A model generated the notes under the pieces. It ran no database searches. It saw only the letters and a list, made by a program, of their open reading frames with translations, and had not been told where the DNA came from. DNA of 64,000 nt from Chloranthus sessilifolius (taxonomy: Eukaryota; Streptophyta; Magnoliopsida; Chloranthales; Chloranthaceae): NCBI GenBank assembly GCA_021018995.1, contig CM037588.1:80139765-80203764 (forward strand), written 5' to 3'. Each line of letters starts with the position of its first letter. Position 1 is the first letter of the stretch. Positions 1,058-49,398 of the stretch are shown piece by piece. The position numbers and the translations under genes were made by a program.

Positions 1058-1460
1058 TGTAGACAACCAAATTTAGCCCAAGGCCCAATCAAAACATATT
1101 TCGAGAGAGACGCACTTTTGAGCTTTTGATGGCATGTATGGTACCCTTAGATACCTTTCCAAACCCTTAGGAATCATCCCAAATCCCTCAGAATTTATCT
1201 CGAACCTTTAGAAACCAATCCCGACCCTTAGACCCCCTTCCGAATCCTAAACCTAACCTTAAAGGGTAATGGATGAGGAGTGGTGCACCAAGACTAGTTA
1301 TGGCCTTCTACTATGATTAAATCTAATAGCATTGAAAGGTAGACATCGTTAGCTTTCCAACGGTCCAAGAACCGCCCCAATCAGAGTTGTACATCAGAAG
1401 ATATGGCAGCCTGAACCCAGAGGGCACAAGCGTAATTTTGATTGGGCCCCCCTAGGGATT

Positions 1461-1666
1461 TGGCGCAACTAATAGTTGCGCCAATTATATTTTTTCCTGG
1501 CATAACTATTAGTTGTGCCAGGCCATTTTCCCAAAATTTATGCCTGGTGTAACTAATAGTTGCGCCAGTATTAAAGTGGGCCCCACCCTCGCGAAGCCAA
1601 CTTCTAGGCCACTGTTCAGCACTATTTTACTGTGCATTTGCCTGGCACAACTAATAGTTGTGCCAA
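1461..1666. repeat. Four 23-bp palindromes in U3 of LTR A
   Basis: Palindromes lie at 1461-1483, 1496-1522, 1543-1568 and 1641-1666. The skeleton is TGGC, half-site GCAAC (or CACAAC-like variants), centre TAATA or TATTA, the complementary half-site, then GCCA. The first copy is perfect apart from its central base. They lie about 280-490 bp upstream of the TATA box. The arrangement corresponds copy by copy to the palindromes of LTR B at 3333-3553, which use a different half-site. Confidence 0.9.
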
Positions 1667-1947
1667 GCATATGAACAGTAGCCTCTGGTTTTACCCTAAG
1701 TTTCTTGATTGGGGTTTGACTTGTTGACCACCTGGATCTTTAGGATGTGTTTTGTTAGTTCTGTTGCACCCTCTTACACCCTATTTACAACCCATTAGGT
1801 GACTTAAAGCCCCTCCCTATCATCCACCATTGGAGGCCCTTTTCACATATTTCAAGGCTCCAAAAATCCTAGGAATCCTTAGATGTGAGATTACCTAATT
1901 GCTAAACCCAATTAACATCTAAGTGGTCTCCTAACCCACCCATTTCC

Positions 1948-1955
1948 TATAAAAA
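1948..1955 (+). promoter_or_regulatory. TATA box of LTR A
   Basis: TATAAAAA in CCTATAAAAAGAG, followed about 30 bp later by AAGGGTTGAAAA, a stretch shared with LTR B. Placement fits the U3/R border of a Tat LTR. Confidence 0.7.
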
Positions 1956-2684
1956 GAGCCTCCCTCCATTTTGTTTAAGGGTTGAAAATTTTTGCCTAAG
2001 AGAGAAAGAGCTTAAAGTGAGAAGATCTTTCTCCCTTTGGTGCACCATTGCCCATACAAATTTCAGAATTCTAAAACCTCCTTTGAGTGATAGTTTCCAC
2101 CTTAGATCCCCTAGTTTAGGTGTAAGCTACTCATTTACCTTCCCTCTCTACCTCTTAGCTAGCAAGCCATAGAATTTAGAACTCCTATTTCCACAATACA
2201 AGCCTTCAAAAGCTCATCAAAGCAAACCAACGCATGGCTCTCCTACGGTGCTACAAGCGCCCGAGGGCTCCGGCTCTCCCCTTTCTTCTCTCTCTTATCT
2301 AGCTCTTCCCATCCTCCCATTTGTGCCATTATGCCACCGAATTTTCGATAGGAACGAAGGGGCACGAATAGGATTTAAGGCCCATTTGGGCAAGAGGAAG
2401 CCATTTTCTTTTTTTTTTTTACTTTATTTTTGTTTTGGCCATTAGTAGAGACCACGTTAAGCGGGTTAATCGAGTACCTAACACCTTCCCGATCGATAAC
2501 TAAAGCCCCTACCCAAGAGCCTTTGGTGTGGACCGGATTCAAAGTCATATTTTTAGCACTTCGATGCTCATAAAAATGATATAGATATCCCGAGACACCA
2601 AAAGCTATGGGTGGCGACTCTATATTTTTTGTTAGCGAGTGCATCACCACCACAGGATCGTAAAAAATCCCACGGTTGCACAGA

Positions 2685-2702
2685 TGGCGACTCTACTGGG
2701 GA
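2685..2702 (+). other. Primer-binding site of Tat copy A
   Basis: TGGCGACTCTACTGGGGA, two bases after the LTR end. This is the form known in Tat/Ogre elements and is assigned in that family to a tRNA-Arg primer. Confidence 0.85.
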
Positions 2703-2968
2703 GTAGGTAGTAGAGCTTCCCCTTGAACTAGGCCTCTATATTTTTTTTATTTTCCTAACATTTTATTGCTATTATTTTATTTTATTTTAGAGGGGTGAGT
2801 AAAATTTTTACTCACCCCTCTAATTAAGTCATTTTACTTACCCCTACTTTTACGTCATTGACGAGCCTTAGCCGATTGGTAGGCCTACTTGCACATAGTC
2901 TTTAAATTTTATTACTTTTCCATCAGTTTTAGTGCCTTAGCCGATCGGTGGGCCTACTTGAGCATTGT
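2703..2968 (+). other. Leader of copy A up to the insertion of B
   Basis: Non-coding. It holds an inverted repeat around 2794-2822 (GAGGGGTGAGTAAAA and its complement, a 15-bp-arm hairpin) and two copies of a unit beginning GCCTTAGCCGAT and ending GGGCCTACTTG (about 2866 and 2933). The same unit recurs three times in the leader of copy B. Copy B starts right after the second unit. Confidence 0.7.
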
Positions 2969-3332
2969 TGTAGACACCCAAATTCAGCCCAAGGCCTGAT
3001 CAGTCTGTACTCCGAGAGAGATGTACCCTTGTGCTTCCGATGACACCCTTAAACCTTTTGGAATCACCCTGAATCCTTTAGAACCGTTCCCCCAACCCTT
3101 AGAGATCACCCCTAAACCCTAGGATCCCTTCTCAAACCCAACTTAAACCCTTCAGAGTATTTGATGGGGGGAGAGCTACAAAATTTTGCACGGATCATGG
3201 CCAAGGATGAGCCACATACCATCAGAAGGAGGACTTCTCCAGCTTTCCAGCAGGTCAAAGATCACCCAATTTGGAGTTGCGGTTCGAATGTTATGACCGA
3301 TTGAAGTTTCACATAAAATCATGACTTTTACT

Positions 3333-3553
3333 CAGGCGTATGTATTAGATACGCCCAGCTAATTTGGCCCCATTTTGGTCCGTTGTATATATTATATACG
3401 CCTGACATTTTTGAGCCAAATTTGGTCAGGCATACATAATACATATGCCCAGCATAGGTAGGGTCCACCGCAGACACCTAACTTCTCAGATCTCCTATGG
3501 TTTTCATGGAAATCACTGTATATAAAATGGGTGCATGTAATATATACGCCCAG
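3333..3553. repeat. Four palindromes in U3 of LTR B
   Basis: Copies lie at about 3333-3358, 3381-3404, 3427-3452 and 3528-3553. The skeleton is AGGC, half-site GTATA, centre TAATA or TATTA, complementary half-site, then GCCCAG. The copies are slightly degenerate here but cleaner elsewhere in element B. They lie about 280-500 bp upstream of the TATA box, like those in LTR A. The non-palindromic DNA between copies three and four is alignable between A and B (GGG(C)CC(C)ACC, then AACTTCT). Confidence 0.9.
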
Positions 3554-3830
3554 CTTAGCTACAGTAACTGTCATCAAATGCTCGAAATTCCTTTATCAGG
3601 TTTGACCTTTTGACCATCCCCTTGGTTGAGGTGGGTGTCCTAAGATCGGTCGCACCTTCTTTGAGCTTATATGCAACCCTTAAGTCACCTATGGTCTCAT
3701 CCCATCATCTGCCATTGAAATCGGTTCCCCAAACCCCTAGGACCCTAAAAACTTAGAAAACCTTAGATGGAGGATTAACTAATTGCTAAACTAATTAGCT
3801 CTTAAGTAACCCTCTAACCCACTTCTTCTC

Positions 3831-3838
3831 TATAAATA
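3831..3838 (+). promoter_or_regulatory. TATA box of LTR B
   Basis: TATAAATA in TTCTCTATAAATAGAGAAG, a strong plant TATA context, followed by AAAGGGTTGAAAA as in LTR A. Confidence 0.8.
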
Positions 3839-4554
3839 GAGAAGCCCCCTTCTTCCCAAAGGGTTGAAAAAATTAGAGTTGAAGAAAATTAGGGAGCCCT
3901 AGTGAGAGAAAGCCCTTTTATTTTCTATTCTCCAACCAGAATTCCAGCATGCTTAGTTCACTCCTTTCAACCCCTTTCAACCATTAGATCACTCCTTTTT
4001 TTAGTCAAGCTTAGTCTCTAGCTTCATCCTACACTTCCCATCTACCAAATCCTAGCATTAGAATAGATTCCCCTACTGATTAAGTCATTTAAAGCCATCG
4101 GAAGCACACCAAAGCGAAGGTCTTCCTCGGTGCAACAAGGGCCCGTGAGCTTTGGCTCACCCCTCTCTTCCTCTACCTTCTTGATGTTTCTTCCGTCCAA
4201 GGATTCAAGCTATTACGCCGCCGAAATTTCAGAGTGGCTCAAAGCTTGATAGGACCGTATTGCCTTCGGGCAAGGGGAAGCTTTGCCCATTTATTTTTCA
4301 TTTTGGCCATAGATAGAGACCGCTACATGCAGGTTGACCGGGTGCCTAAACCCTTCCCGATCGATAATCGAAGCCCCTACCCTAGAGCCTTTGGCAAAAA
4401 TCGATAAATCAGAGTCATATTTAGCACTTCGGTGCTCCAAATATTGATTCAAAGGTTTCCCGGGTCACCAAAAGCTCCGGGTGGCGACTCTACATTTTAT
4501 TCCATCGTGAGCGCATCACCGCGATGGATTCGAGAGAATCTATGGTCGCACAGA

Positions 4555-4572: not shown

Positions 4573-5952
4573 TATCACCCTAGTGCTTCCCCTCTTGTTG
4601 GCCTTTATTTTTAATCTCTACTAACCATTGCTATTTTTTCTGATTTTCTGTTGCTTTTTCTTCATTTTTGTTGTTTTTACTAACATACTTTCCCCTACGA
4701 TTCGGTCCTTTAAGTGCCTTAGCCGATTGGCGGGCCTACTTGCGCCTTTAAATTTCAGTTTTTATGCTTTTGTCATTTAAGCCGCCTTAGCCGTTTGGCG
4801 AGCCTGCTCGCATCTACTTTCCACGTTATTTAAATTTCAGTCATTTACGAGCCTTAGCCGTTCGGTGGGCCTACATGCGCTCTTTATTTCAGTCATCATA
4901 TCTCTCCATTGAACGGCGGCCCGGGCTTGTCATACCCGACCCGAACTTGGACTTAAATTAACTCCCCTTTAAAAAATTGCAATTAAAAGTGAACCAAAAG
5001 TGTGGGGACATAATCAAATTTATTTTTGCGTATTTTGGGTAGTTTCTCGGGGGGTTTAGGCACAGATATAACTTACCCGGTTCCCAATAAGGCGGCAGCC
5101 ATAGTGGTGATGATCCTGAAAAGAACCACCCCTTCCAGTACTTGAGAAGGCGCTTACGCCGGAGGTATATCGGTTGGTTGTCAATTCTGATCAAGCTGTA
5201 AAACCCGCAATGGTGAGAGCGTAGACAGCTCGAATTCAGCCGTGTATCCCTAGGAAGCAGAAAGGAGTGACTCGATAACATACACAACAGTCCCCGGGAG
5301 CATCCCTCCTAGGGAACTAGTTCCAAAGACTCATTGTGGGCTTGTTGTTCACTGTCAAACAAAGCTGGAAGAACAATTTTTGCTAGGTGTATATATTAAA
5401 TACGCCCGGCAACAAATCCCCAGAAATACTCAGGCGTATATAATATATACACCCAGTCAAAATCCCCAGATTTAAGCTAGGAGTATATAATATATACGCC
5501 CAGCCAAATTTGCTAGTTTTGGTCAGGCGTATATAATACATACGCCCAATATAAACTGGGTTTAGGCAGCCCGATTTGAGGCCCAATCCACCACCCAAGT
5601 TCCCCGATTAGCGGTAATTAGTGCCCACAGTAGCCTCCCGCATTCTGTAACGCCCAATATGCCCCTGCCCAATCAAACAAAGGTGACTTCTCATTGATTT
5701 ATTCCGGGGGATCGGGTCGTTTGCGTGGACTCCCTCACCTTCAATAGAATGAAAGGGTTCACTTTTGCTTCTTCCAAAGTGTGTCGGATCCTGCCATGGG
5801 ACCTACTAAAGGTGCATATATCACCTGAGACGGGAATTTTTCTAGGGCACCAGATCATCATTCATTTAAATAGGGGAGTTAATTTTCATTTGAAAAATTT
5901 ATATATATATATATAGAAAAATCAAAATTCCATATATACGTGTACTTTCGGT
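4573..5952 (+). other. Leader of Tat copy B with GCCTTAGCCG repeats
   Basis: Mostly non-coding. Three copies of a 30-bp-class unit (GCCTTAGCCGATTGGCGGGC-like) lie at about 4731, 4790 and 4854; the same unit is in the leader of copy A. A palindrome cluster at 5384-5549 is listed separately. A short AT run (about 5898-5916) precedes the proline-rich reading frame. Small ORFs on either strand here have no recognisable domain. Confidence 0.65.
5384..5549. repeat. Second palindrome cluster of copy B (leader)
   Basis: Four copies at about 5384-5408, 5431-5456, 5478-5503 and 5523-5547, all of the GTATA half-site type with a TAATA or TATTA centre. They are roughly 47 bp apart. They would be present in the genomic RNA as well as in the DNA. 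Confidence 0.88.
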
Positions 5953-7690
5953 GTGACCGTCACTACAGTGACTTCAAACCCAACCTGTAGAAAGAGAACT
6001 AGGAAGGTATTCGGCCCTTACCCAAGACATCGATACAATACTCGTCAGCAGATCATGTTGAGTGCCGATAAATCCCCACCATCATCCCCATCCCATTCCC
6101 ATATAGGAGAAGACCCGATCTCCAACACCTTCACCCAAACCTGGTTCGATGTCACGGGTCCATTTGGGGCACCCGTGTTCGCATCCACCCCATCCCCCGC
6201 CCTTACATTTTCCCAACATACCCCCATCTCATCCCCTACTGAAACCCCTCATTTCCCAACCGACCCCTAATCCTCATCTCTCATCCATACACCCTTACTG
6301 CACCCCCCTACTCTCAAAGACCCCATCGGGACCCCCATCCCCCGCTTACTTCCCACGTCCCATCCACCTCATCATCCATGACCCCTACATCTTATATTCC
6401 ATCCACCTCATCTCACATGCCATCCACATCACATGGCCCATCCACATCCCAAGATACCCCCCCATTTACCCAGGTCATGCCCAACTTATCCCAGGGTATG
6501 ACCAGTAACCCACCATCTTCCATAGCCATACATTCATACCCTCCATGCGTAATCACCCATACCCCCCATACCCGGGCCATACCCAATTTCACCCGACCCC
6601 TTCCATCCTTGAATGGTCCATCACCCTCCAATCTCACACTTGAATCCATGCCCTTAATGGAGGACATGAGAATGATGTATACCCTATGGGCTGCCTCTCG
6701 GAACCCTACATCCCAAACCCCACATCAAGGTCTCCAAAACCTCCATACCCCATTCTCTCATGACCATGCCCAACCACCCATCATTCATACCATCCAAGAT
6801 CCCCCACCTCAATTCTAGGCCCAAGCCCAACAGGCCCAAGCCCACTCATCTCAGGCCCAAACCCACACAAATCCATGGGCCCAAGCCCAAATATCTTTAG
6901 AACCATGGGCCCAAGCCCACTCCCAAACCCAAGCTCAGGCCCAGGCCCAAGCCCAACAAACCCATCAAACCCAAGCCCAAAATCCTCAAGGCCCATGGAC
7001 CCAAGCCCAAACCCATCAGACTCAGGCCCAAGCATAAAACCCTCAAGGCCCATGGTCTCAGGCCCAGGTCCAAAACTCTCAAGGCCCATGGGCCAAAGCC
7101 CAAACCCACCAGACTCAGGCCCAGGCCCAAGCCCATCAGACCCAGGCCCAGTTCCAAGCCCCCAGGGCCCTTGGACCCAAACCCATCAAACTCAGGCCCA
7201 AGGTCCATCACCCCACACCCAATACCCACATGGCCCATTAGCCCAAACCCAACAGGGCCAATTGGCCTTGAGAGTTTTGGACCTGGGCCTGAGACCATGG
7301 GCCTTGAGGGTTTCATACCAACCCCCACACCCAAGCCCAAGGCCCATCAACCCATGCCTTCCAAAACCATCAAGCCCAAGGTCCATCCACCCACACTCAT
7401 CAAGGCCCGTTCACGAACCCCTTACCCCTTCACCAGTACCCTTCATTCACCTATACCCCTTATGCCCCCATCCTGCCTCCAACGGAAAATTTGATCCACT
7501 CCATTCCTCAAAACCACGCCTACAACATCCCGCCACATCAACCACACTCCCAGAATGTGCACCCAGCTCAGCACATCATTCATCCACAAACCACGCCTAC
7601 AGCATCCCCTACAAACCTTGTGGCCCCACTAGGTCATCCAACCCATCACCCCCCAAGTCCAAGTAGCGGAGCTCGCCCCTCACCAGTACA
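5953..7690 (+). pseudogene. Proline-rich region before gag, Tat copy B
   Basis: The reading frame starts with a basic stretch (CRKRTRKVFGPYPRHRYNTR) and becomes very rich in Pro, Ser, His and Thr. From about 6800 to 7400 it is built of AGCCCA/GGCCCA hexamers, giving GPSPNP-like protein repeats. Tat elements often have a long, poorly conserved region or extra ORF before gag, and I place this there. No domain is recognisable. Many overlapping ORFs on both strands are by-products of the repeats. Broken. Confidence 0.55.
6800..7400. repeat. AGCCCA/GGCCCA hexamer array
   Basis: Dozens of copies of AGCCCA and GGCCCA, often alternating and partly in tandem, with interspersed ATCAGACTC, AAACCC and CATGGG words. 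The array is GC-rich and strand-asymmetric. GGCCCA is also the core of plant TCP-type 'site II' elements, which may be coincidence. Confidence 0.8.
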
Positions 7691-13190: not shown

Positions 13191-13429
13191 ACCTGTTATC
13201 CCAAGCCGTTGTACTTCTAGCACGGATGGATCCGTTGAAGTACCTGTTCGAGAAACCTGCTCTCACTGGTCGAACTGCATGATGGCAACTTTTATTATCT
13301 AAGTTTGACATCACGTACGTCACTCAGAAATCAATCAAGGGGCAGGCGCCCGCTAATCATCTTGCTGAGAATCCTCTGCCAGATTACAAGCCACTAAAGA
13401 CTGAATTCCTCGATGAGGACATCCTGTTC

Positions 13430-13870
13430 ATGACAGAAGAGGATATGAAGGAAACAGAGGAGTCCTGGGTAATGCACTTTGATGGGGCATCGCATGTCAA
13501 GGGCCAAGGATTTGGCACCATCCTAATTTCACCAAAAGGATCCCATGTACCGGTCTCTATCAAACTCAACTTCCCTTGCACTAACAATATTGCTGAGTAC
13601 GAAGCTTGCGTCGCTGGTCTACAGGCAGCTCTGGATCAGAATGTAACTCACCTTCGAGTATTTGGTGATTCACAGTTAATCATATGTCAGACAAATGGTG
13701 ACTGGAAGACGAAAGATGAGAAACTAATCCCCTATCATGAACACCTTAAGGATCTGATAGCTTGCTTCCAAGATGTAACTTTCTCGTACGTTCGCCGGAT
13801 AAGGATTCGCTTTGCCGATGCATTAGCAACTTTGGCGTCAATGATTGAAATCCCCTTTGGTGTCAAGATG
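13430..13870 (+). pseudogene. aRNH: Second, archaeal-type RNase H (Tat hallmark)
   Basis: WVMHFDGASHVKGQGFG, then NNIAEYEACVAGLQAAL, VFGDSQLIICQTNGDWK and RFADALATLASMI carry the D-E-D-D series of an RNase H1-like fold. It lies after the normal gypsy RNase H and before integrase. This dual arrangement is diagnostic of the Tat clade. It is one of the longest open stretches of copy B (264 codons from 13430). Confidence 0.9.
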
Positions 13871-14039
13871 AAGCCGATCATGATCGAGCAGAGGAATGAG
13901 CTGGCCTTCTGCCTCCAGATTGAGGAACCTACAAAGCCTGATGATGAGCCACCTTGGTTCTCAGATATCAAGAATTTCCTCGAGATCCTAACTTTCCCAG
14001 AGGGTACATCCAAGACAGATCGACGAACCATTCAACGTT

Positions 14040-15205
14040 TAGCGGCAGGTTACATCATTGGCGGGGAATGCCTCTACAAGCGATCATATAATAACATCTT
14101 ACTCAGGTGCCTCACTGAAACTGAAGCGGTCAATATTATGAAAGAAATCCATGAGGGAGTATGCGGAGCCCACATCAGCTGTTGCATGCTCACTAAGAAA
14201 ATGCTACGGCAAGGATACTTTTAGACCACCATGGAATCGGATTATTGTAAACATGTCCAGAAATGCTACAAGTGTCAAGAACACTCCTGTCTGATACACG
14301 TTCCTGCCATTGATCTTCACTGCATGACCACTCCTTGGCCATTTGCTACCTGGGGCCTTGACGTTGTCGGAATGATTAATCTGAAAGCATCAAACGGACA
14401 TTGGTTCATCCTCATCACCGTTGAATACTTCACCAAGGGGGTAGAAGCAGCGTCATTTGCCAACATCACGGTCGATCACGTTGAGAAGTTCATCAAGAAC
14501 AACATCATTTGCAGATTCGGTGTGCCCAAGGATATCGTCACTGATAATGGCACTAATTTTGCTAATAGGCGCATCCGGGCCTTGTGTGAGTAGTTCCAGA
14601 TCAAGCATCATCTATCATCCCCATATAGGCCTCAAACGAACAGAGCTATAGAAGCGGCCAACAAAACTCTTATCCACATTCTGGAGAAGATGGTAATCAC
14701 TTACAGAGATTTGAGTGAGTAGTTACCCTTCGCACTTTCGGCCTATAGAACATCTATTCTCACCGCTACAGGGGCAACACCGTTCTCCCTTGTGTATGGA
14801 ACCGAGGTCGTCCTCCCGGTAGAGGTTGAAGTACCCTCGCTTCGAATCCTCATGGAATCAGGCTTACCTGAAGTAGAGAGAGAGAGATCCCACTTTGAAC
14901 AATTAAACTTATTGGACGAGAAGAGACTCCTAGCCTTGTGTCACACTCATGTTTACCAGGGGAGAATCGCACGTGCTTATAATAAACGTGTCCGCAGTCG
15001 AGATCTAAAGGTAGGAGACACTGTGCTGAAGAAGATTTTCCCATCCCTCCATGCCGATCCAAAAGGAAAGTTTAAGCCAAACTGGGAAGGACCATACGTC
15101 ATTCGAGACGTGCTGCCAGGATACGCCATCCGCCTCGCCACCATGGACGGAGATCATCTTCCTGAGCCCATCAGCGCTGGATACGTCCGACGGTTCTACT
15201 CTTAG
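14040..15205 (+). pseudogene. int: Integrase of Tat copy B
   Basis: An N-terminal zinc finger (HEGVCGAHISCCML, then C-x-x-C in CYKCQEHS) is followed by the core: TWGLDVVGMINL, GVPKDIVTDNGTNFAN and RAIEAANKTL for the D-D-E triad. The C-terminal part reads VGDTVLKKIFPSL, KFKPNWEGPYVIRDVLPGYA and GDHLPEPISAGYVRRFY, which ends pol. Role in the family: insertion of the cDNA. A few breaks. Confidence 0.9.
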
Positions 15206-15421: not shown

Positions 15422-16999
15422 CATATACCAAAAAAAAAGAAAGAGAGAAAAGATGCATGTGTATAAAGTTACTATCAAATCCAAAAAAATTGAAAAAAGT
15501 AAAACCTCAAAAAGAGATTGCCTTAAATGGAGGAAAAAGAATAACAAAAAAAAAAAAATGTGTGTGTAGAAGAATCACGGGGCATGTACAATAGAAATCC
15601 CCAAGGAAGAAAGTATGTTGAGAAAACTGAAGCCGTATCAAGGAAACCCTTTTACCCCAGCATACCTTCAAACCCTAACCTAATCCATGGCAAAGCTACA
15701 CCTCGAAGGAAGCCCTTTTTGTAGGATCACAAGCAGTCATAACATCTGTCAAAGCCAACATGAGCCGAGTCGTGAGACGACACCAGAGCTTCATCCAGCC
15801 GGTTATGACAGAATCAGTGTCCATGTCGTGGCTTTCTGGTTCTTGAGAAAAAAATAATAATAAAATAAGAAGAAAGAAAAAAATTAATTTGAGTTCAAAG
15901 CAAAATGGGCATGGTGAAAACCCGCAAGGGCACCACGGGTAAAAACAATGACTTCACGCGGACGAAGTGAAAACCTGAAAAGGCACTTGGGGTAAGAGAG
16001 CAAACCCATGGACGTGGTGAAAACCCGAAAGGGCGCTACGAGTAAAAACAGAGATGACAGGCATAGCGAAAACCTGTCTTGGGCGCTGTGAGCAAAAATG
16101 TCAAGAAAAGAGAGATTAGGAGAGGATTTGTTCTGGCTCGCCTATTTTAGTCTGGACCCCTTGAGCCTCTACTCCCCTTTGCTAGGCCGCTCATGTTAAA
16201 ATTGGATCGGATCCTGATCAAGTATGTCATCTCTACTGCGTCATCTAACACATGACCAAAGGTAAAGGCAGAAAACCAATCAATCTCGGGGAAGCTGACC
16301 TATCCATGTTTAAAAAGAAAAACCAGAGCCTCATAAACAGGGTTCGACCATGCTCAAAAAAGGACCCACCAGTTGGCCTCGTAAATACCGACATCACAAA
16401 AAGGAGAAGGAGAAAAGGAGAAAATTTCAAAAAAGATAATAGATTTTCCTTTTCCATAAAAAGCCTCACACTGTGTAGGAGGAAAATTTTAAAAAAGATA
16501 ATAGATTTTTCTTTTCCATAAAAAGCCTCACACTGTGTAGGAGAAAATTTTAAAAAAGATAATAGATTTTCCTTTTCCATAAAAAGCCTCACACTGTGTA
16601 GGCGAAAATTTTCAAAAAAGATAATAGATTTTCCTTTTCCATAAAGTGCCTTACACTGTATAGGGGAAATTTTCAAAAAAGATAATAGATTTTCCTTTTC
16701 CATAAAAAGCCTTACGTTGCGAGACGTATGAAAGAAAATTCGAACACCAAAAAAAAAAAAAAAATATATATATATATAGCAAATTTCATTTCTTTTCTTA
16801 CAGCGTTACGTGTGAAGTGTCACGTCTCAAAAAGATAACAACAAGGCACACTTTCTATTTTCTGCTTTCTTTACAAGTATATAAAAAAAAACAATAAACA
16901 AAAAAGAAGAAACAACCCAAAAAAAAGGGAAAGAGATCTCTGTTAAGGGGCATCAGCCCCCCCTTTGTGTATATGATCTATGGTATGTACAGGACCAGG
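15206..16999 (+). other. 3' non-coding region of copy B, first part
   Basis: No gene. It contains an A-run followed by (AT)n(GT)n at about 15377-15420, and further A-rich tracts to 15560. Four degenerate copies of a unit reading GTGAAAACCCGAAAGGGCGC then GAGTAAAAAC lie at about 15905-16100; such units are common downstream of pol in plant Tat elements. A five-copy tandem repeat follows at 16420-16715, then an A-run with (AT)n at about 16750-16778. Lys-rich small ORFs here are low-complexity artefacts. Confidence 0.7.
16420..16715. repeat. Tandem repeat, about 61 bp x 5
   Basis: Unit words in order: GAAAATTTTAAAAAAGATAA, TAGATTTTCCTTTTCCATAA and AAAGCCTCACACTGTGTAGG. CACACTGTGTAGG contains the palindrome CACACTGTG. 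The five units differ by only a few bases, which indicates recent local amplification. The minus-strand ORF running through it (repeating MEKENLLSFLK) is a consequence of unit length and is not taken as a gene. Confidence 0.9.
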
Positions 17000-18650
17000 T
17001 CAGGGGCAGGAACCACGCTTCAAGGCACTGATCTCTGCAAGAAGAGAGTCCTCACAGGCATTTCGATCAGACAACCACCTACCATGAAGACTCTTCTGCC
17101 GCCTCCATGAAGCGTCAGCTGCACTACGAGACTCAGTCAAAAGCCTAATCAACCGAAGAACCTCTCTCTCGGCCGTAGCAGCTATCACCTCTGCAATCTC
17201 AGCTCTGGCCCTTTCCTTCTCCAAAGCCTCAGTCAAAGCCAGCCTCTCTACAGAAAGAGACTCAATCCTAGTCTGGAGTATCATTTCCTTGTATGGCCAG
17301 GGCCCCGTCTCTATCACATCTATCGAAACCGGGCTAGGGGCAGGTAAGACCTCGGATGCCAGCCAAACCTTGTAATCAGAAGAGAGAGCGCCCCCCGGAA
17401 CTAAGTTGCACATGTGCGCCGATTGGTGGGTCTCCCAGAGGACTGCTCTGCGGTCTAGGTCACTGAGAGAACCCCAAGAGAATATCAGAGAGCACAAGGG
17501 CGGCCTCACAGTGCATGACACGTGTGGGGTATATCCGAATTGGCAAAGCACCCAAGATGGGAAATAGTAGGTACTGCCAGTCAACCCCAAAAACGTGATA
17601 CCCTCACAATCCCGAGAGCGGACAATCGAAAAGGTGCCGTCCATCTAGGGAAGTTTCCAGATCAACTCCACATCAAATAGCCATAAGCTCAGTTCTTCAA
17701 TACTCCCATAAGGCAACCTTGAGCACCGGGTCAAAAAGCCCCGAGCCACATCCCCTCTTACTAAGCAAAATCTCGGCACAGGCCCCATGATAGCAAAATG
17801 CTCTCCTAGCCAAATCTAAATGAGGAGTGGACTCCCGCTAAGAATCCCAACCTGGCCCTAGGCCAAGGCATCCAAGCCCCAATACATCTCAGCCAAGACC
17901 AAATGTACCAGTGAATGACCTCCCTCCAATTCGGCCAAGACATCGCATAACCCAAGAGAAAAGGTCTTGCCCCCAGTAAAGAAGAGAACCTCTGATAGCA
18001 AATAAAGGGCAAAGGCCTTTACATTGAAAGGATCTTGGATAGGCAACTTTCGGAGACTCAAGTCTTCGAAATGTTCTCTTAGGAATTTCATCGAACAACT
18101 GGTGCGCCCCTCGACGAGGCCCTTCTCATACCCACCCTTTTTTAAACCAAGAATCTAGTGAACCGCCTTTGCATACCCCGGTTTCGACACCACTTTGGCG
18201 AGTCCCCGATGCATCCTCAAGCCGATAATAGAGGCTAGCTCTTCCAAGGTTGGGGTAAGCTCCCTAGACCCAAATCTGAAGACATGGGCCCTATGGTCCC
18301 ACAATGCCAAAGCCGCTTGCAAGAGATTGGGCAACAGAGGAATAGCAAGGAGGGAGGAAAGGCGAGATAACCCGAGGTGATCCAGATGAGCAAGCTCGCC
18401 CTCGGCCAAGCTATCACACCATTTTTGCAAAAAACTGGGCCCCGGGTCCAAACAGGGAAGTATACTAGCCCCAGCCCCTGTATGTGAACTTGGGCCCTTT
18501 TTAGGAAGCGAGTCCATGGACGTACAAAGATGTTCTTTATAAAAATCAGCCAATGTAGGGCGACGGACCCGCTTAGAAAAAAAAAGAGAGAGAAAAGAAA
18601 GAAAAAAGAGAGGGGCAAAAAGGCCAAGCCTGGATGAAAGGAGAGGCAAA
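17000..18650 (-). pseudogene. Antisense plant-mobile-domain-type gene 1 (DUF7745-like)
   Basis: Three segments on the minus strand agree with one protein type. From 18649: RRPTLADFYKEHLC, SFLQKWCDSLAEGELAHLDH and ALWDHRAHVFRFGSRELTPT followed by LEELASIIGL, which is the hallmark 'W-D-x-x-x-x-x-F-R-F-G-x-x-E-L-T-P-T-L-E-E' of the family. Middle: AFALYLLSEVLFFTGGKTFS and LAELEGGHSLVHLVLAEMYW. End (17000-17644): TFLGLTGSTYYFPSWVLCQF, then an Arg/Glu/Ala-rich coiled coil. Known role: plant mobile domains occur in Gypsy and Mutator-like elements, and host relatives (MAIL1, MAIN) act in silencing. The function of this copy is unknown. The hydrophobic N-terminus is encoded by a pyrimidine tract and may be intron. 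Palindromes lie just upstream. A few breaks. Confidence 0.72.
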
Positions 18651-18697
18651 GAAGGCTAGGTTCGGGTTATAAAGAACCCGTTGAGCCCAGTGATATG

Positions 18698-18863
18698 AGG
18701 CGTATATATTATATACGCCAAGGCAAAAATGAAAATATTCTGCTAGGCGTATATATTATATACGCTAATGCAAAATGCAAAACATTCTCCTAGGCGTATA
18801 TATTATATACGCCAAGGCAAAATTTTAAACTATTTTGCCAGGCGTATATAATATATACGCCCA
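18698..18863. repeat. Third palindrome cluster of copy B, upstream of antisense gene 1
   Basis: Four copies at about 18698-18722, 18743-18768, 18791-18816 and 18839-18863, spaced 46-48 bp. All have the GTATA half-site, and three are perfect in the core. The cluster starts about 50 bp upstream of the first ATG of the minus-strand gene, so it occupies the promoter side. Confidence 0.92.
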
Positions 18864-19249: not shown

Positions 19250-22200
19250 AAATTTCAAAAAATAAACTAGTCCTGGGCAGGCCCCTTTGACTTCTTCCGG
19301 CGTCGGGTCGCACTTTGAAAAGTACGGGTCTCCCCCACCCGAGTCCACACCTGAGAGATGCGGTCGAGTAGAGAGCGCGACTCCTTTTCGCGAGCACGCT
19401 GCATGAGCACACCAGAGGCCATTAGGTAGGGAAACAAGCAAAAAGTAAATAAGAAAATGATTAGATGCTGTCAATATTCACTCACCACCTCAGCCTCCCT
19501 AAGCCCGACAATGTTGCGATAGTATTCGACTTGGTTCACGGCCGATTCATAATTCTGCAGAGCAAAAAAAAAAAAGAGAGGTGTCAGTCACACAGGTCTT
19601 CGACATAATCTAAGAAAACAGAAGAGCAACGTAACAAGGGAGAGATTTCCCCAGGGATCAGCTCAGGGGGTGGGATCAGAATAGCTTCAACAGATATGCG
19701 TGCCTTCTCAGCCACATCGGCACACATACGCGACAGAAAGGCATCGTCCAAGCGCTTAAAAGTCCCTTGGACCTCAGTTGGCGAAATGCCGGAAGCGTAA
19801 GAACCGGAAGGGTCAGAAGGTCCAGCACCGATAGCCTCATCAGGAGCAGCTGCCTCATCCCCCTCATCTGAATCATCACCCTACCCAAACTATAGAGAGA
19901 AATAGTTTTTGTCGAAATAGCAGGGCAATCAAGGTAATCACATGGAAGGCTGCTAAATAAAAAGAGGAATGAACATTACCTGAGACCGCGAACCACCAAA
20001 AGCCAAAAAGTTGGCACCGGGCACGAACTAGGGCAGCAGAGAACGATAGGGCAGAGACTCATACCACATCTGATATCCTCCCGAAAAGAGAAGGTCATCA
20101 ATGGGGACCCCATGATGGAGAAAGTGAGTGGTAAGCGCTTCGGTAGAACCTTCAGGAGCCAATACATTAGCTGGAGGAGCTTGGGGCACAACAAAAAGAG
20201 GACGGTACTGATGAACCACCCTCTCTCCTAAGTAATAGGCCCTAGCCCAGGACCCATAGAAGAAAATGATGCGTCGATCTAACAAAAAATGACATGGACG
20301 CACTGCAGCCAGGTTCTAGAAGGGAGATCCGACGTAGGGGTCAAGGATGATCTGCTCATAAACAAAAAGGAGGAATATATACATTTGGTCAGAACCCACA
20401 CCACAAAAGAGCTATCAAATTTGCAAAGAGAGAAATTGTTATACCTGCTCAGGGATCAACAGATCAAACTAGGAGTGCAGCCCTAACTCCAGGTGCTTCA
20501 TGCCTACGTCCCGACGGCGGTTCGCATGCCAATTGCTCATAAGGGGGAACGTAGGAACTTCGGATAGAAGCAGAGGACGACCAGGTTGGAAATGTAGATA
20601 CCCCTAAACTTGAGAAAGCAAGTGGATAAAAACAGATTTGCCATAAAAGGGAAAAGTTTAACAAACTTAGACTAAAGGATAAAATACCTCAAGTGCGGGC
20701 CAAAAGCTCACAACGGAGCTGAACTCCCCAAGTATGGCTCGCACCAGGCTAGACATGAGCACCGCATAACCAGCACCGCCCCAATCAAACCGATGCACAG
20801 TGTCCCAGTTCACCATAACACTAAGAAGGGACAATGAGACCCACCCTCCACTGGTATTTGAAAGAAGAGCCTTACTCAAAAGGAACAACAGAGAAATACG
20901 GGCTAGCATCAGTGCACGCTCTGGCTCAAGATAAATGACCGCATCGGGCTGGCCCAAATCCACTAACTCATGAGGCTCAAACAGACTAACCAGCCAGGAT
21001 AACTTGACTTCAGAACCGCAAACGTTCCCGGAGGTTGGGTAGGCCCTATCAGCCGAGTCACCTCCTCCCTATCAGGCGTGTGGGTAGGTGTCACTAGCAC
21101 CCATCCAATGCGAACCCCAGTAATCATGGACCAGTCCGCAGGTGTAAGGGTCATCTCAGCCATGGCCATATGAAACATCATGGTCTCAGGGCGAAAGCAT
21201 TCTATCTGGGCCTTCACATAGGCCTTGTCGGCCCTCACGGCGAGGCATGAAATAAAATCTCCAAAACTGGCTTGAGCAAGTAGATCCTTCACCACCTAGG
21301 GAAGATAGAGTACGAGGTGCTGTAGATCGAACCAGCCACCCCAAAACATGATGTGTGGTAAAGGCTGCAAACAAAAGGGATCTGTCAAATAGGAGCAAAG
21401 TGGTATAATAAAGGCATCAAAGGAAAAGAAAAAGGGCTCATCTGTTTACCTGGCCAGCGATCCCAAAATTGGAGATATGGGTGTGCTGACAATGAAAGAG
21501 GCCGGTACGGGTGGCTTCACCTTGCATTTCATACCAGGGTTGAGAGGAGCATTGTGAAACGGTAAACTGCTCCCCATAAGGAGCATAGGCCATCTCTGGC
21601 CCCTCCTGTGGATCCTGCCCTTCGTCGCTGGACATCTGAAAATATGAAACACATCGGTATAACAAAGGGCTGCTAAAAAAAAAAAGAAGAGAAAGAGAAA
21701 AATAACAAAAAAGGCAAGCAAACAAAAGAGAAAAAAAAAAGCACTAATCCATCATGAAAGAAAAAAAAACAAATAAAAGGAAAAGAAAAATGATGATGAA
21801 TGATGAAGGATGATGATATATATAAATAATAAAAAAAATGATGATGAAAATGAATCAAAAAAGAGGAGCATAGGCATAAGGAATCACATATACTAAAATA
21901 AAAAAAGGAGGCATTAATCTTTCACCACAAAAAGGAAGAACATCAAGCATTTCAAACAAAAAAAAAGAGAGAAAGAGAAAAATAACAAAGAAAGCAAAAA
22001 GAAATAGAAGAAAAAAATGCACTAATTCATCATGAAAGAAAAAAACAAATAAAAAAAATTGATGATGAATGACGAAGGATGTTGATAAAAAAAATAAAAA
22101 ATGAAAATGAATGAAAAAAAAGTGGAGCCTAGGCATAAGGAAGAACATCAAGCATTTCAAAAAAAAAAAAAAATTATCAAAATCTAAAGGAAAGATGAGG

Positions 22201-22440
22201 GAGGGGTTGGTGATTACCTTCAATAGGAGGAGAAATAGATCCAAAAATTGGCGGAGAGTGAACGCTTTTAATCGGCACGCACGACTCCTAGTGATAGAAC
22301 TCAAGTAAAATCAAATTTAAAAACCCTAGAGGACTGTCCCGGACTTGAGAAGGAAGGAGGGAAGAAGATAGAATTTGAAAGAGAGGGACCCTTTTGTGCT
22401 TGGGCTCGGGCAGTTTTAAAATTGCCAAATTTTGGTCAGG
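19250..22440 (-). pseudogene. Antisense plant-mobile-domain gene 2 with introns
   Basis: A multi-exon gene can be read on the minus strand. A leader intron runs from 22217 (AAG|GTAATC) to 21636 (TATTTTCAG), directly before the ATG at 21635. The first coding exon (21635-21450, MSSDEGQDPQEG...) ends at CCAG|GTAAAC. The next starts after TTTGCAG at 21365 and carries the plant mobile domain: SFGDFISCLAVRADKAYVKA, then FRPETMMFHMAMAEMTLTPA and ITGVRIG, the 'E-x-x-R-P-E-T-x-x-F-H-x-x-x-x-E-M-T-x-T' signature. Later exons give ARISLLFLLSKALL with FDWGGAGYAVLMSSLVRA, EVPTFPLMSNWHAN, and RRIIFFYGSWARAYYLGERV, all in the order expected for the family. An acidic tail (DDSDEGDEAAAPDEA) follows at about 19870-19660. 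Introns imply that it is transcribed separately, opposite to the genomic RNA. About one or two breaks seen. Confidence 0.72.
21660..22216 (-). repeat. A-rich imperfect duplication inside the leader intron of gene 2
   Basis: Two related blocks of about 200 bp (about 21670-21890 and 21955-22160) share CACTAATCCATCATGAAAG-like, GATGATGAATGATGAAGGAT and AGGCATAAGG. The word AAGAACATCAAGCATTTCAA occurs at about 21937 and again at 22141. On the gene's strand this is a pyrimidine-rich intron. The Phe-rich ORFs read from it are not genes. Confidence 0.75.
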
Positions 22441-22510
22441 CGTATATAATATATACGCCCGGCTATTTTTGCTGCAGATTTGCTAGGCGTATATATTATA
22501 TACACCCAGC
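22437..22510. repeat. Fourth palindrome cluster of copy B, upstream of antisense gene 2
   Basis: Two copies, at 22437-22462 and about 22484-22509, of the GTATA half-site type. They lie about 220 bp upstream of the leader intron's donor site. A TATA-like TTTTAAAA lies just inside (about 22414-22422). Confidence 0.9.
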
Positions 22511-24077: not shown

Positions 24078-25948
24078 TGTTAGGCTATTTTTAAGTGCTT
24101 GCTACTGACTTTATTGAAGACAGTGATAAGAATGGGGTGAAAGAAAATGAATGAAAGGTGGATTGAAAATGATAGAGCAGCAAGCCTAAAATATGCACAA
24201 TCCTGCAAGATACAGGGCCTGTTGTAGCAAGTTTTGATAAGTAAGAGTTTGTCCCACAGGGAAGTTGATCTTAAGCTCCAAGGGAGCCATCTTTAGTAGG
24301 CCCTCCAGATTTGACTACAGATCTGGCAATCCTTAATGGAAGGGGATTTAGGGTCACTAAAATCTAAATTCTAAGGCATCCTAATGTCTAAACTATAGAA
24401 AGGGTTAAGAAAGAAGATGGAGTGAGAAAATAAATATAAAAGGGTGAGAAGTATGCTATTAGGTTCAGATCTGATGGGTTTCATTACTTAAATTAAGAGC
24501 TGCTGCTATAGAAGTCCTGTCCAATGGCTACATTATCACCACTGAGGAGAAAGAATCCAACTCATCTCTGTGCCCTGATCCAATCCCTTTATGGCTATAA
24601 CCTGTCCACTTAAATGGTTATAAACTATCTAATTGGGGAACCACAGTCCAGAGATGGGTCAGAACAAGTTTATCATTGTAGGCACTACTTCATCTAGTCT
24701 ACAAGCACAAGAATCCATAGGGAACCTCAACCTCTAAAGTGTTATGTGTGGGGCTAGGCCTGTATGGGAGCATGTTAGCCCAGACACATAGAACCAGCAA
24801 GAGTTTGAGTGCAGCCTTAGATCCAGTTGTCCACTGCTTTAGAGAGACTGCAGTGATCCAGTCGCAAGCCTACTATCTCTATAACCAAACCAGATATGCC
24901 ATCTGATGGCGGGTCTATACACATACAGGGGAGTTTGTCTCAGCACAATCTCTCACAAAACTACAAGCACACGTGTAGAGAAGAACAATCCGTCTTGAGT
25001 CTGTGGATTAGCTTCACCCTAAGGCTATAACCTGTCCACTTGAATGGTCACAGACTATCCCAGAGGCTATCCTCCTCACTAAACTCAAGATAGAACAAGA
25101 AACATTGCTGCCACCACCATGTTCACAAGGCTACAAAAGCTCATTGCTCCCATGGGGATTTTAGATCGAGTGGGTCCTGTGGTGGGGCTAGGCCTGTATG
25201 GGAGCATGTTAGCCCAGACACACAGGTCACTTAGATCTGAGTAAACCATAAAATTAGTCCTTCATTGCTTGCAATACGTCGTAGCAATGGAGGATCTCAA
25301 GGTAACAGCCTTGTACAGAACAACTCATAAAAATCCCATAAAAGTAAAACACCCTATCATGAAACTCCATTAATCTACTCCAAATAGTTATACAAAGGCA
25401 TAGCCAGCAAATGCTGGACTATGGAGAGAAGAAAAAGTAAAAAGAAATCTATCGAAACCTTACTAGAGATCTGCAGCTACTGCAAGAAGAAGATAGACTA
25501 AATTCTATTCTAAGCAGAGAGTCCCAAAAAGCTCTCTAAACCTAAACCAAGCTTAGGTTTATATAGCAGTCAGCTTGGCGGCGCATTAGGGTTAGGAAAC
25601 CCTAATCTTAATGATGCCACATGGCCTGATACTATTCCTTGGATGCCTCAGGGTGCGTGCACAAGAATTGGAGCATTGGAGTGCATGCCCTAATTGCTGA
25701 AAGTTCCCAGAATGTCCTCTGCAGAAGTGAGGGAGAGTTAGAGTTCAGAGCCTCGCCAGGTAGCACTGATTTCCAAGACTGTCGCATGCTAGCACGGTCT
25801 TTGCTAGATTGGATTAGCTTAAAATTCTAGTCGTCGTGGGGTTGTCTTAGTTGCAGCTTGAAGCAGTCGCGCGATAGAGCATTGAATCCTCACTGGATTG
25901 CTCAGGTCTTCGTGGGATTGCACTTTCCCACTGAATGGCGTGGGAATC
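24078..25948 (-). repeat. 3' LTR of Z, left part (U5, R and part of U3)
   Basis: Begins TGTTAGGCTATTTTTAAG, as does the LTR at 62859, and is nearly identical to it as far as the window allows. On the minus strand a TATA box, CTATATAAACC, lies at 25566-25556. The transcribed R-U5 part is therefore about 1.45 kb. U3 continues to 25948, where element X is inserted, and resumes at 51415. Confidence 0.9.
25944..25948. other. Target-site duplication GAATC, left copy
   Basis: GAATC immediately precedes the LTR start TGTTAAG at 25949. It recurs as GAATC at 51415-51419 immediately after the LTR end AACA at 51414. Five bases is the length made by Ty3/gypsy integrases. Confidence 0.85.
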
Positions 25949-27979
25949 TGTTAAGTAGTGAAAAATACCATTTTTCACCCCTAAACATGAGCCTTGAAAG
26001 ACCCTTGAGAAGACTAAATAAGTGCTTTAGTGTGCATTTTACAGCTAACCAATCAGACAGGTCCAAATCCGAAAAGCATCCCAAAAAGATCAAAAAGCTG
26101 ACAGCTCATGTCAAGTTTAAAGAAGGAGTGAAGAAACAGCCTCAGCAATGGCTAAAGAGGGTCTAAAAGAGCAGACAAAGACCTGAAGCAAGAGAGAGAG
26201 CCATTCGCAAAGAACTCCTACTATTCGCAAAGAAGAATGGGAGCCTAGAGTTCAATTCGCAAAGAACTTCTACTATTTGCAAAGAAGAATGGGAGCCTAG
26301 AGTTCAATTCGCAAAGAACTTCTACTATTCGCAAAGAACTTGCACTTTTTGTAAAGAACCTTGAACTTTGCGAAAAGAAGAAAACACTCCTCGAAAAGAA
26401 GATTGAACTTTGCTAACGAGCTTTGTGGTCATTGAACTTTGTGAAAAGGCCCTAACTCTGCGAAAAGGTATTCGAGATTCGCTTTAACAAGGGCAATTCA
26501 AGAATCAATGTCAGACGCGCTAATGCATTGAAAAGCCCGAGACATTCCGGAAGATTCTCGAGCATCCAACCAAAGGCATATTCCACCCCATGTGAACACC
26601 CAAAGATGAAATTACTTGGCGGAACTTCTAGAAACTCTAACTACTTTGCGAAAAAGCCCTTAAACTATGCGAAATGGCATTACGGGATTTGTACTCGTCC
26701 AAGGGTATTTCAGAAACTTTGCAGCGCCCAATGCAATCAAAAGACCAAGAACATTCGAAGGTTCCAATCAAGATCCAAGGCATATTCCACCCCATGTGAG
26801 CGCCGTAAAGTTATATTACTGGAACTTCCGTAAGCTCAAACAGAATTTCAAAATGCATAATGTAATTGATACCTCTGTTTCTGATTAACCGGATCAAGCT
26901 ATTGGTTGATCTGAATCTATCCAATTACGATTGGTTGATACACATTTGAGCCGGTTTAGGAAAACTATAACTAGAGGAACCATTTGCCCAAATTGGGCAT
27001 GTAGATTTTAGAGTTTTCATCTCTGTTTCCCTCATTCTCGTCGGATAGCTTATCCGAACCCCTGTAATCCCTTCTTGTAGTTTACCTTTGAGAGCCATTG
27101 TGAGTGATTTGTACTTCCAAGTTCAATTCAAGATGTAAGTCGAGGGCTCTCGAGAAGCTCAGGTGTAAGTGCGAGGGCTCTCTAAAGCCGTGCTCTGTAA
27201 TTGTAATTTTGGATTTTAAAAGGTTCTTTGTAATTTGTGTCTTCTCCATTGGAGTCATGTCGAGGGTCCTGAATGTTCACCTTAGTGCATTAGACTTCTT
27301 TAGATTCACTCATCCGCATGCAACTTCCCTTAAGTCATCACCCCTGTGCGAATTAGCATTGGTAACCTAATTCTACCAGCATTTACAGTGATGTTCATGT
27401 TCGAACTAAAGAATAGGCCAACTATGATCTGTGACCATTTAAGTGGACAGATCACAGCCATAAGTCTAAACCTATTCCTTAATTCGGATTTATTTCTCTT
27501 ACATCTGTGCTGGTAGCCAGATGAAGATTGAATCTGCTCTGTTGAACTACAGATTCTCCATTAAAATTCAGAGGCTAAAGTACATGAAGCTATTATTTCT
27601 GCATTTGTCTTATTTTAAACATCTCCCCAACTCGGATCTGGATCATGTAGTTAGTTCTTTTCTTTATTTGCTTATAGTTAAATGTGACACAATCCAACAC
27701 TCTCTTTTATCTATTCTTGTTTTTAGATAATTATAGAGCCAGATCTGGTAGCACAGATCTGGAGGTTTATCTCTCAGTTTAGACAAAATTCTCTGTGGAC
27801 GATCTTGAAATACTTACTTTTAAAACTTGCTACAATTGGCCCTGATCTTGCAGGCCAGTGTTAGCCCCAATGTGCTGATATCCCTTTCATAAGTTAACAT
27901 CCATATAACTTAGCATTCTTTAATTCTTTAATTTTTGATTCATAATGCACACATTTATGGCACACTTGGAGCGACAACA
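25949..27979 (+). repeat. LTR X1 (left)
   Basis: About 2.03 kb, TGTTAAGTAGTG to GCGACAACA, followed by the Athila primer site. U3 holds the array of TTCGCAAAG words (both orientations) from 26205 to about 26720. A TATA-like CTATAA lies at 26965-26970. Two further copies are at 41982-44059 and 49399-51414. Confidence 0.92.
26205..26530. repeat. TTCGCAAAG motif array in U3 of X1
   Basis: TTCGCAAAGAA and its reverse-complement form CTTTGCGAAAAG recur about a dozen times. The first part is a tandem repeat of about 52 bp (nearly three copies; words ACTATTCGCAAAGAAGAA and GGGAGCCTAGAGTTCA). The array is repeated in the other X LTRs at about 42236-42540 and 49646-49920. Confidence 0.9.
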
Positions 27980-27985
27980 AGTTTT

Positions 27986-28003
27986 TGGCGCCGTTGCCGG
28001 GGA
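27986..28003 (+). other. Primer-binding site of X1
   Basis: TGGCGCCGTTGCCGGGGA, the classic Athila-type primer site, six bases after the LTR end. Confidence 0.92.
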
Positions 28004-49385: not shown

Positions 49386-49398
49386 AAGGCTGGGGGTG

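Follow-up and report, generated by a model that had tools for sequence, protein, structure and literature searches.

The question raised by this locus is what reads the short palindromes found in the long terminal repeats (LTRs) of two related Tat-like Ty3/gypsy retrotransposons in Chloranthus sessilifolius. The two LTRs lie next to each other in a window of 64,000 nucleotides (assembly GCA_021018995.1, contig CM037588.1, here C5:80139765-80203764), and the window was compared with the whole 2.17-Gb assembly of 32 contigs. The palindromes were found to be genuine and symmetric, with a preferred spacing and with half-sites linked to the element family. They occur at four places in the element, two of which adjoin antisense genes with a plant mobile domain (PMD). 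It is very probable that the palindromes are DNA-binding sites. The reading favoured here, which we regard as evenly poised, is that they are symmetric operators of a largely family-specific DNA-binding factor, the PMD protein being the simplest candidate.

LTR A, of the GCAAC family, was located at 1058..2682 of the window (forward strand) with the ends TGTAGACAACC...TGCACA. It is followed by the primer-binding-site region and 5' untranslated region (UTR) remnant of element A (2683..2968, forward strand) and, directly after this, by LTR B of the GTATR family (2969..4552, forward strand). As the first-pass annotation had described, LTR B aligns to LTR A over its full length and each LTR carries four palindromes, which were given no strand. 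Those of LTR A are A1 (1461..1483, GCAAC/GCAAC), A2 (1498..1520, ATAAC/ACAAC), A3 (1545..1567, GTAAC/GCAAC) and A4 (1643..1665, ACAAC/ACAAC), the last of them 284 bp before the TATA box (1948..1954, forward strand). Those of LTR B are B1 (3334..3356, GTATG/GTATC), B2 (3381..3403, GTATA/GTATA), B3 (3428..3450, ATACA/ATATG) and B4 (3529..3551, GCATG/GTATA), with the TATA box (3831..3837, forward strand) 281 bp past the last site. Measured from site start to TATA box, the distances are 486, 449, 402 and 304 bp in LTR A and 496, 449, 402 and 301 bp in LTR B. The matching positions reported by the annotation are therefore real for three sites, but the outermost site is offset by 10 bp. The frame GGC-N5-TAWTA-N5-GCC had been called constant. 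It is strict in five of the eight LTR sites (A1, A2, A4, B1 and B3), while A3 and B4 begin with GGT and the left frame of B2 has decayed to GTT, each of these three sites having one or two frame mismatches. The half-sites, GCAAC-like in LTR A and GTATR-like in LTR B, differ at positions 2, 4 and 5, but have G at position 1 and A at position 3 in common. A joint change of both arms at every site holds for the family and only roughly for the B copy in the window, whose arms are visibly decayed, and the concert of the arms must therefore be judged at the family level. The palindromes are thus genuine, and their first description was partly confirmed and overstated in detail.

Ten strict sites were counted in the window, compared to a mean of 0.03 in 100 shuffles. 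Within bases 1-23000, 15 palindromes with at least nine of ten pairs were found, against a mean of 1.1 and a maximum of 2 in 20 shuffles. These figures exclude chance as an explanation of the sites. The A sites have no TATA core, and a plain TATA box, already dismissed in the annotation, was rejected together with AT-rich noise on this ground and on the excess of strict sites.

Genome-wide, 55,653 sites with the strict frame were found, roughly 55-fold above a chance expectation of very roughly 1,000, which was scaled from the shuffle mean of the window. A reversed pattern gave 128 matches, but this control is too low a yardstick because the reversed pattern contains CCG/CGG. Exact A/A sites numbered 9,336 and exact B/B sites 8,531, while only two A/B hybrids were present. 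Neighbouring A half-sites with 16-46 bases between them were found 5,553 times in forward and 5,536 times in reverse orientation, and A-B neighbours, in either order, once in the genome, formed by one of the two hybrid sites. Arm symmetry was studied in 164 distinct sites from the window and from 76 loci of 3 kb each, which were picked via their sites from the first 82 Mb of one contig. The two arms matched at five of five positions in 84 sites, at four in 49, at three in 25, at two in 6, and at one or none in no site. In total, 703 of 820 arm positions matched, compared to a mean of 485 and a maximum of 527 after the right arms had been re-dealt across sites. In a sample found by the frame only (the first 50 genome places listed), 31 sites had the form G-Y-R-W-(A/C/G) in one or both arms, and in these the arms matched at 5, 4, 3 and 1 positions in 13, 10, 7 and 1 sites. 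The remaining 19 were less symmetric, with 1, 3, 6, 5 and 4 sites at 5, 4, 3, 2 and 1 matches. The covariation of the arms and the near absence of hybrids favour the dimeric protein with shifted specificity that the first-pass annotation had put forward. The same frame was also seen with a different, GGCCCGATTAWTAATCGGGCC-like spelling at C1:4607141, 14072621, 14072751 and 19151564 and in locus L022, the latter having no similarity to the Tat anchors used.

Beside GCAAC and GTATA, the half-site classes GCATG, GTATG, GCAAG and GTGTG were found, so that at least six half-site types of the general form G-Y-R-W-N are present within one genome. Of 100 listed sites that kept both CpGs and had G or T at half-site position 5, 72 were homotypic. 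A midpoint-rooted tree was made from the LTR sequence downstream of the sites, the sites themselves being excluded. L054 was left out, having fewer than 700 bases after its sites, and the row L066_1018 stems from a chance site in an LTR that the tree already contained. The LTRs grouped by half-site class, with support of 0.999 for the GTATR clade, 1.0 for GCAAG, 1.0 for GCAAC and 0.99 for the latter two jointly. GCATG/GTGTG LTRs were scattered along the base of the tree and L060 grouped with none. Within the B clade, the fifth half-site base of the outermost LTR site was G in one or both arms in all seven LTRs, and this site read GTATG/GTATG in four of them, the inner sites being mostly GTATA. 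Similarly, the outermost site of the GCAAG clade read GCAAG/GCAAG in five of eight LTRs, with GCAAC-like inner sites. Four of the B loci and six of the GCAAG loci were retrieved via a pattern requiring G or T at position 5, which biases the frequency of these variants and not their position in the LTR. The symmetric outermost variants indicate that both arms of one site can change jointly while the neighbouring sites remain unchanged. In the six of seven B-clade LTRs in which a TATA box was found, the first site lies 490-496 bp before it.

That the half-site class follows the LTR phylogeny would also be expected from neutral history, in which each family derives from one founder and the arms are homogenised by palindrome-templated (quasi-palindrome) correction with no reader involved. 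Quasi-palindrome correction is a known mutational process, and single sites with both arms altered beside unaltered neighbours do exist. Such a history leaves the preferred spacing unexplained, as well as the recurrence of the same half-site at separate places in the element, where the spacers between sites match at only 0.30-0.45. We consider it improbable.

This recurrence became evident when the sites were followed beyond the LTR, in clusters that the annotation had not mentioned. A second cluster of four GTATA-type sites with 46-47 bp spacing is located in the 5'UTR of element B (5386..5546), about 830 bp after the LTR. A third cluster, D (18699..18861), contains four GTATA/GTATA sites with 47-48 bp spacing directly upstream of antisense gene 1, and a fourth, E (22439..22506), lies upstream of antisense gene 2 and consists of two GTATA sites with a spacing of 47 bp. 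In total, the B element of the window carries 14 sites over four places, all GTATR-like apart from decay. In one A element on contig C1, exact A-A pairs were found at 69546619, 69548759/69548807, 69561231/69561279, 69565493 and 69567845; judged by distance, these would correspond to the LTR, UTR, D, E and 3' LTR. D clusters adjoining gene 1 were seen in class A (L034, L043), class B (the window) and the GCATG class (L023, L055, L058, L061, L070). E clusters adjoining gene 2 were seen in class B (L002 and the window) and the GCATG/GTGTG class (L054, L068, L076), and the A-class E-like clusters of L031 and L032 were placed by flanking similarity alone, without a match to gene 2. Among the loci read, the GCAAG class was seen at neither D nor E. 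Clusters at different places in family A or B mostly share their half-site type, which again agrees with the proposed change in specificity of a dimeric protein.

The spacers were compared without gaps between site pairs 47 bp apart. In family B, the half-site columns of LTR and D were identical at 0.89, 0.98, 0.95, 0.95 and 0.61, while the 26-bp spacers matched at 0.30 (22 comparisons); spacer match was 0.45 between LTR and UTR and 0.44 between UTR and D. In family A, the corresponding values for LTR and UTR were 0.79, 0.77, 0.98, 0.97 and 0.77 for the half-site columns and 0.33 for the spacers (120 comparisons). Between A and B LTRs (132 comparisons), the frame was 0.91 identical, half-site positions 2, 4 and 5 were 0.19, 0.00 and 0.09 identical, and the spacers 0.49. 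The within-family half-site and frame values are partly circular, because families were labelled by their half-sites and the frame was used to locate the sites; the genome-wide site counts are free of this circularity.

Spacing was found to be strongly preferred. Adjacent sites were 47 or 48 bp apart in 79 of 125 pairs (pairs up to 160 bp), and all 50 A-A pairs listed were 37-38 or 46-49 bp apart, although 37-67 bp was permitted. The step of 10 bp from 37 to 47 bp recurs between the outermost sites (-486 and -496). It corresponds to roughly one turn of the helix, which would be expected if bound proteins touch. Spacings were concentrated at periods of 10-10.5 bp, although a score of at least 0.6 was also reached by most of the other periods; this phasing is weak because the dominant 47-48 bp spacing raises most periods.

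A family-specific hairpin stem had been offered in the annotation as the alternative to a protein. More broadly, the palindromes could be structural, acting as RNA hairpins, by loop-loop (dimer-initiation) pairing or as DNA cruciforms, and be selected for nothing but their pairing. Where one RNA contains identical palindromes, these could pair with one another and would for this reason have to change together. The RNA fold of the D cluster was also strong (z -11.6), but this is expected, because any palindrome array would fold so. The mismatches between arms were therefore compared on the element sense strand in 163 sites, all of which had at most one mismatch in the frame and at least two matching arm positions. 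LTR and UTR sites had 46 G-U and 48 A-C mismatches, and the D, E and unassigned clusters, a small sample, had 15 and 9. Selection on an RNA stem should tolerate G-U better than A-C. No such preference was observed, and an RNA stem, including the hairpin of the annotation, is thus unsupported. The mismatch comparison bears on RNA and not on DNA cruciforms; the genome-wide excess of fixed frame letters is not demanded by pairing. Structural palindromes are, in our view, very improbable.

The two antisense genes were then considered as a source of the reader. Antisense gene 1 (17000..18655, reverse strand) is a broken copy encoding a plant-mobile-domain/DUF7745-like protein with a helical, charged C-terminus, the DUF7745 match (E 0.001) being below the cut-off. 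Antisense gene 2 (approximately 19267..21635, reverse strand) is a PMD protein in several frame pieces, probably spliced, with a PMD match at 20667-21068 (E 8.2e-5) that is likewise below the cut-off. Better preserved relatives were found at other loci. A stop-free relative of gene 1 beside an A-type D cluster, L034:1369-2787, matched PMD with E 1.7e-13 and 50.9 bits (cut-off 34.9) and DUF7745 with E 3.3e-8, and a relative of gene 2 beside a B-type E cluster, L002:2410-3021, matched PMD with E 2e-12 and 47.4 bits. Judged by these relatives, which exceed the PMD cut-off that the window pieces do not reach, the elements encode PMD proteins in their antisense genes. A tblastn match of gene 1 had 54% identity over 376 aa, and the relatives of gene 1 showed 46-86% identity in the stretches that could be aligned. 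Two and then three matches were obtained when relatives were searched for at the protein level. The C-terminus of gene 1 contains a long proline-free charged stretch, in which a coiled coil was looked for and no clear heptad signal was seen.

According to the favoured reading, the palindromes would be dyad-symmetric recognition sites for a sequence-specific factor acting on the element itself. The sites, 21-23 bp long and of the form GGCG-Y-R-W-N-TAWTA-mirror, are grouped mostly 47-48 bp apart at the LTR promoter, in the 5'UTR and upstream of both antisense PMD genes. Since the half-site differs between families, the reader should be largely family-specific, and its inheritance together with the sites would explain why these change jointly. 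That the reader is encoded by the element is somewhat favoured. PMD is the best candidate because two of the four clusters precede PMD genes, and the chance that it is the reader is about even. One of the two PMD proteins may bind as a symmetric dimer and may regulate its own gene, the sister PMD gene and the LTR promoter. The likely outcome would be feed-forward activation or anti-silencing of the LTR and accessory promoters, as for VANC in VANDAL elements, with repression or copy control as the main variant. From the annotation's interpretation the dimeric binding protein is thus retained, while the RNA hairpin and the restriction to the LTR are given up. Taken one step further, the elements would form a self-contained regulon, in which antisense PMD proteins read 21-bp operators at the LTR, the 5'UTR and both PMD genes, and subfamilies split by joint change of protein and operator, so that largely orthogonal pairs (at least A and B) coexist. 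This we propose only tentatively.

Several observations, in addition to the circularity described above, weigh against this reading. The 5'UTR cluster is followed by no clear promoter, with only an AT-repeat at a distance of 354 bp. A TATA box was looked for near D without success, and near E there was only an AT-repeat 615 bp away. The outermost LTR sites lag behind the inner ones. Among the 13 LTRs of the GCAAC clade for which a TATA box was found, the first site lies 484-488 bp before it in six and 437-520 bp before it in seven, some of the latter having lost a site. Among the 100 listed sites, 28 were not homotypic: 8 were GCATG/GTGTG mixtures, which would be the expected product of cytosine deamination from a common GCGTG, and 20 were other mixtures. 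In UTR clusters of class A, the first site frequently carries a GCAAG arm, and the last one in some cases a GCATG or GCATA arm (L012, L024, L035, L038, L044). In L023 and L070, whose D clusters are of the GCATG class, a GCATG/GCATG site is accompanied by one GCAAC- or GCAAG-like site, and L049 combines GCAAC and GCATG within single sites. Half-sites varying at random within one LTR, named in the annotation as the pattern that would speak against it, are partly approached by these mixed clusters, but the mixing is not random. The scarcity of hybrids is therefore established for A versus B and not for every pair of classes. On the protein side, few intact PMD sequences are available per half-site class. 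A structure prediction for a PMD relative from a three-sequence alignment was unusable (predicted local distance difference test, pLDDT, 32.5), and no demonstration of DNA-binding activity of PMD was found in the excerpts of the papers cited here.

The mixing of GCAAC and GCATG in some clusters would suit a less private reader. LTR enhancers are normally read by host factors, and the position of the sites 300-500 bp upstream of the TATA box agrees with this. The families may have captured different dimeric host transcription factors, or paralogues of one, for the LTR and antisense promoters, and the GGC/TAWTA/GCC frame with its variable N5 could reflect a paralogous host family. With host factors, however, at least six half-site types in one genome are difficult to account for, and the joint switch of the A and B clusters with hybrids nearly absent is easier if one co-inherited reader changes. 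A host reader is considered rather unlikely. The sign of the regulation could also be reversed, the same operators being read by a repressor, either in copy-number control by the element or in silencing by the host, since small RNAs can be seeded by palindromes. Negative feedback would agree equally well with autoregulation through the clusters before the PMD genes, and the host PMD proteins MAIN and MAIL1 act in silencing (PMC5418596). Selection of an element for sites that silence itself needs a copy-number-control argument, and we regard repression as somewhat unlikely.

The published systems were compared on the basis of excerpts of the papers cited. In Sirevirus (Ty1/copia) elements, repeated palindromic motifs precede the TATA box of the LTR and also the env gene (PMC2829016). 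Like these, the present sites are high-copy palindromes with a conserved core and a variable remainder, clustered upstream of a conserved LTR TATA box and again upstream of an additional gene, which is env-like in Sirevirus. The likeness is one of layout only. Nearly all Sirevirus motifs have a CGG-CCG core, whereas the core here is GGC...TAWTA...GCC in Ty3/gypsy elements with gypsy-type PMD genes; further clusters are present in the 5'UTR and before each of two antisense PMD genes, and the A and B subfamilies of one genome have symmetric half-site switches with almost no hybrids.

In Arabidopsis, the motifs bound by VANC proteins are short, specific to the family and present in repeated copies in non-coding parts of VANDAL elements (PMC5735166, PMC10398659). 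The VANDAL motifs diverge between related families, as observed here, and were proposed to evolve with the element protein. The VANDALs are, however, DNA transposons with VANC binding shown, and VANC (DUF1985) recognises YAGTATTAY or, for VANC6, AGTTGTCC/AC, compared to 21-bp palindromes in LTR retrotransposons known here from sequence alone. A kinship of gene 2 with DUF1985/VANC was rejected, since the only link was a sub-threshold match of one fragment (15.1 bits, E 0.023, cut-off 35.1) in an element not scanned in full. DUF1985 was absent from five other PMD-matching proteins. Independently of these genes, DUF1985 is common in the genome, where 150 matches were scored out of 4,046 candidates and many of them had open frames; these may belong to a separate VANDAL-like or related family.

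Antisense accessory genes between pol and the 3' LTR are shared with Tat, Retand, Grande and related elements, where their role is called unknown; Grande gene23 has its own promoter and a nuclear product, and a regulatory role was proposed (PMC11963269, PMC7264820). Retand antisense genes encode TRP28 and not PMD, and operator sites do not occur in the excerpts of these descriptions. PMD is the most frequent non-canonical gypsy domain in one survey (PMC9289625), and gypsy elements, across angiosperms, are reported to be the only ones that encode the clades PMD-A1 and PMD-A2 (PMC5418596). The present genes, also Ty3/gypsy-encoded, each lie behind a palindrome cluster. The function of gypsy-encoded PMD is called unknown in both sources, and the host proteins MAIN and MAIL1 affect genes sharing the 'DOWN' promoter motif (PMC7156037). 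Among the titles and abstract openings listed in literature searches, no report was found of palindromic operators in Tat/PMD elements or of symmetric half-site switching in Tat elements. What is new here is the presence of clusters in the 5'UTR and before the two antisense PMD genes, with half-sites matching within the family.

If true, the regulon would provide the first function for a gypsy-encoded plant mobile domain, as a sequence-specific DNA-binding domain. This role is made directly testable by natural sites that number in the tens of thousands, occur in several symmetric spellings and lie beside PMD genes. An element-encoded reader would mean that giant LTR retrotransposons evolve gene-control systems of their own, which diversify as VANC targets do, and would offer a panel of plant DNA-binding specificities. 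It would also have a bearing on the host silencing proteins MAIN and MAIL1, which share the PMD domain.

The remaining parts of the elements and the window were also inspected. The pol gene is broken in the window copy. Of the dual RNase H that marks the Tat lineage, one RNase H-like stretch was seen, a match to RVT_3 (PF13456, E 6.4e-20) at 13283-14224 that may be the Tat-type one; a second was not sought. Directly after LTR A, the primer-binding-site region contains TGGCGACTCTACTGGGGA, presumably of the tRNA-Arg type, and a perfect inverted repeat with 18-base arms is present at 2787-2823 in the 5'UTR remnant of element A. Repeated GGCCCAAGCCCA-like units were seen at 6814-7254, upstream of a gag-like region. 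Between pol and antisense gene 1, a tandem repeat of about 61 bp in about five copies (16416-16722) resembles the arrays known from Retand elements. At 25941-28053, 41974-44132 and 49391-51414, three related copies of a repeat were found, which are about 88% alike and have a TTCGCAAAGAA-rich array, and the scan of the window gave no strict palindrome site in them. Finally, a direct repeat of 98% identity at 24078-25219 and 62859-64000, 38.8 kb apart and cut by the window end, perhaps represents the LTRs of a large young insertion.

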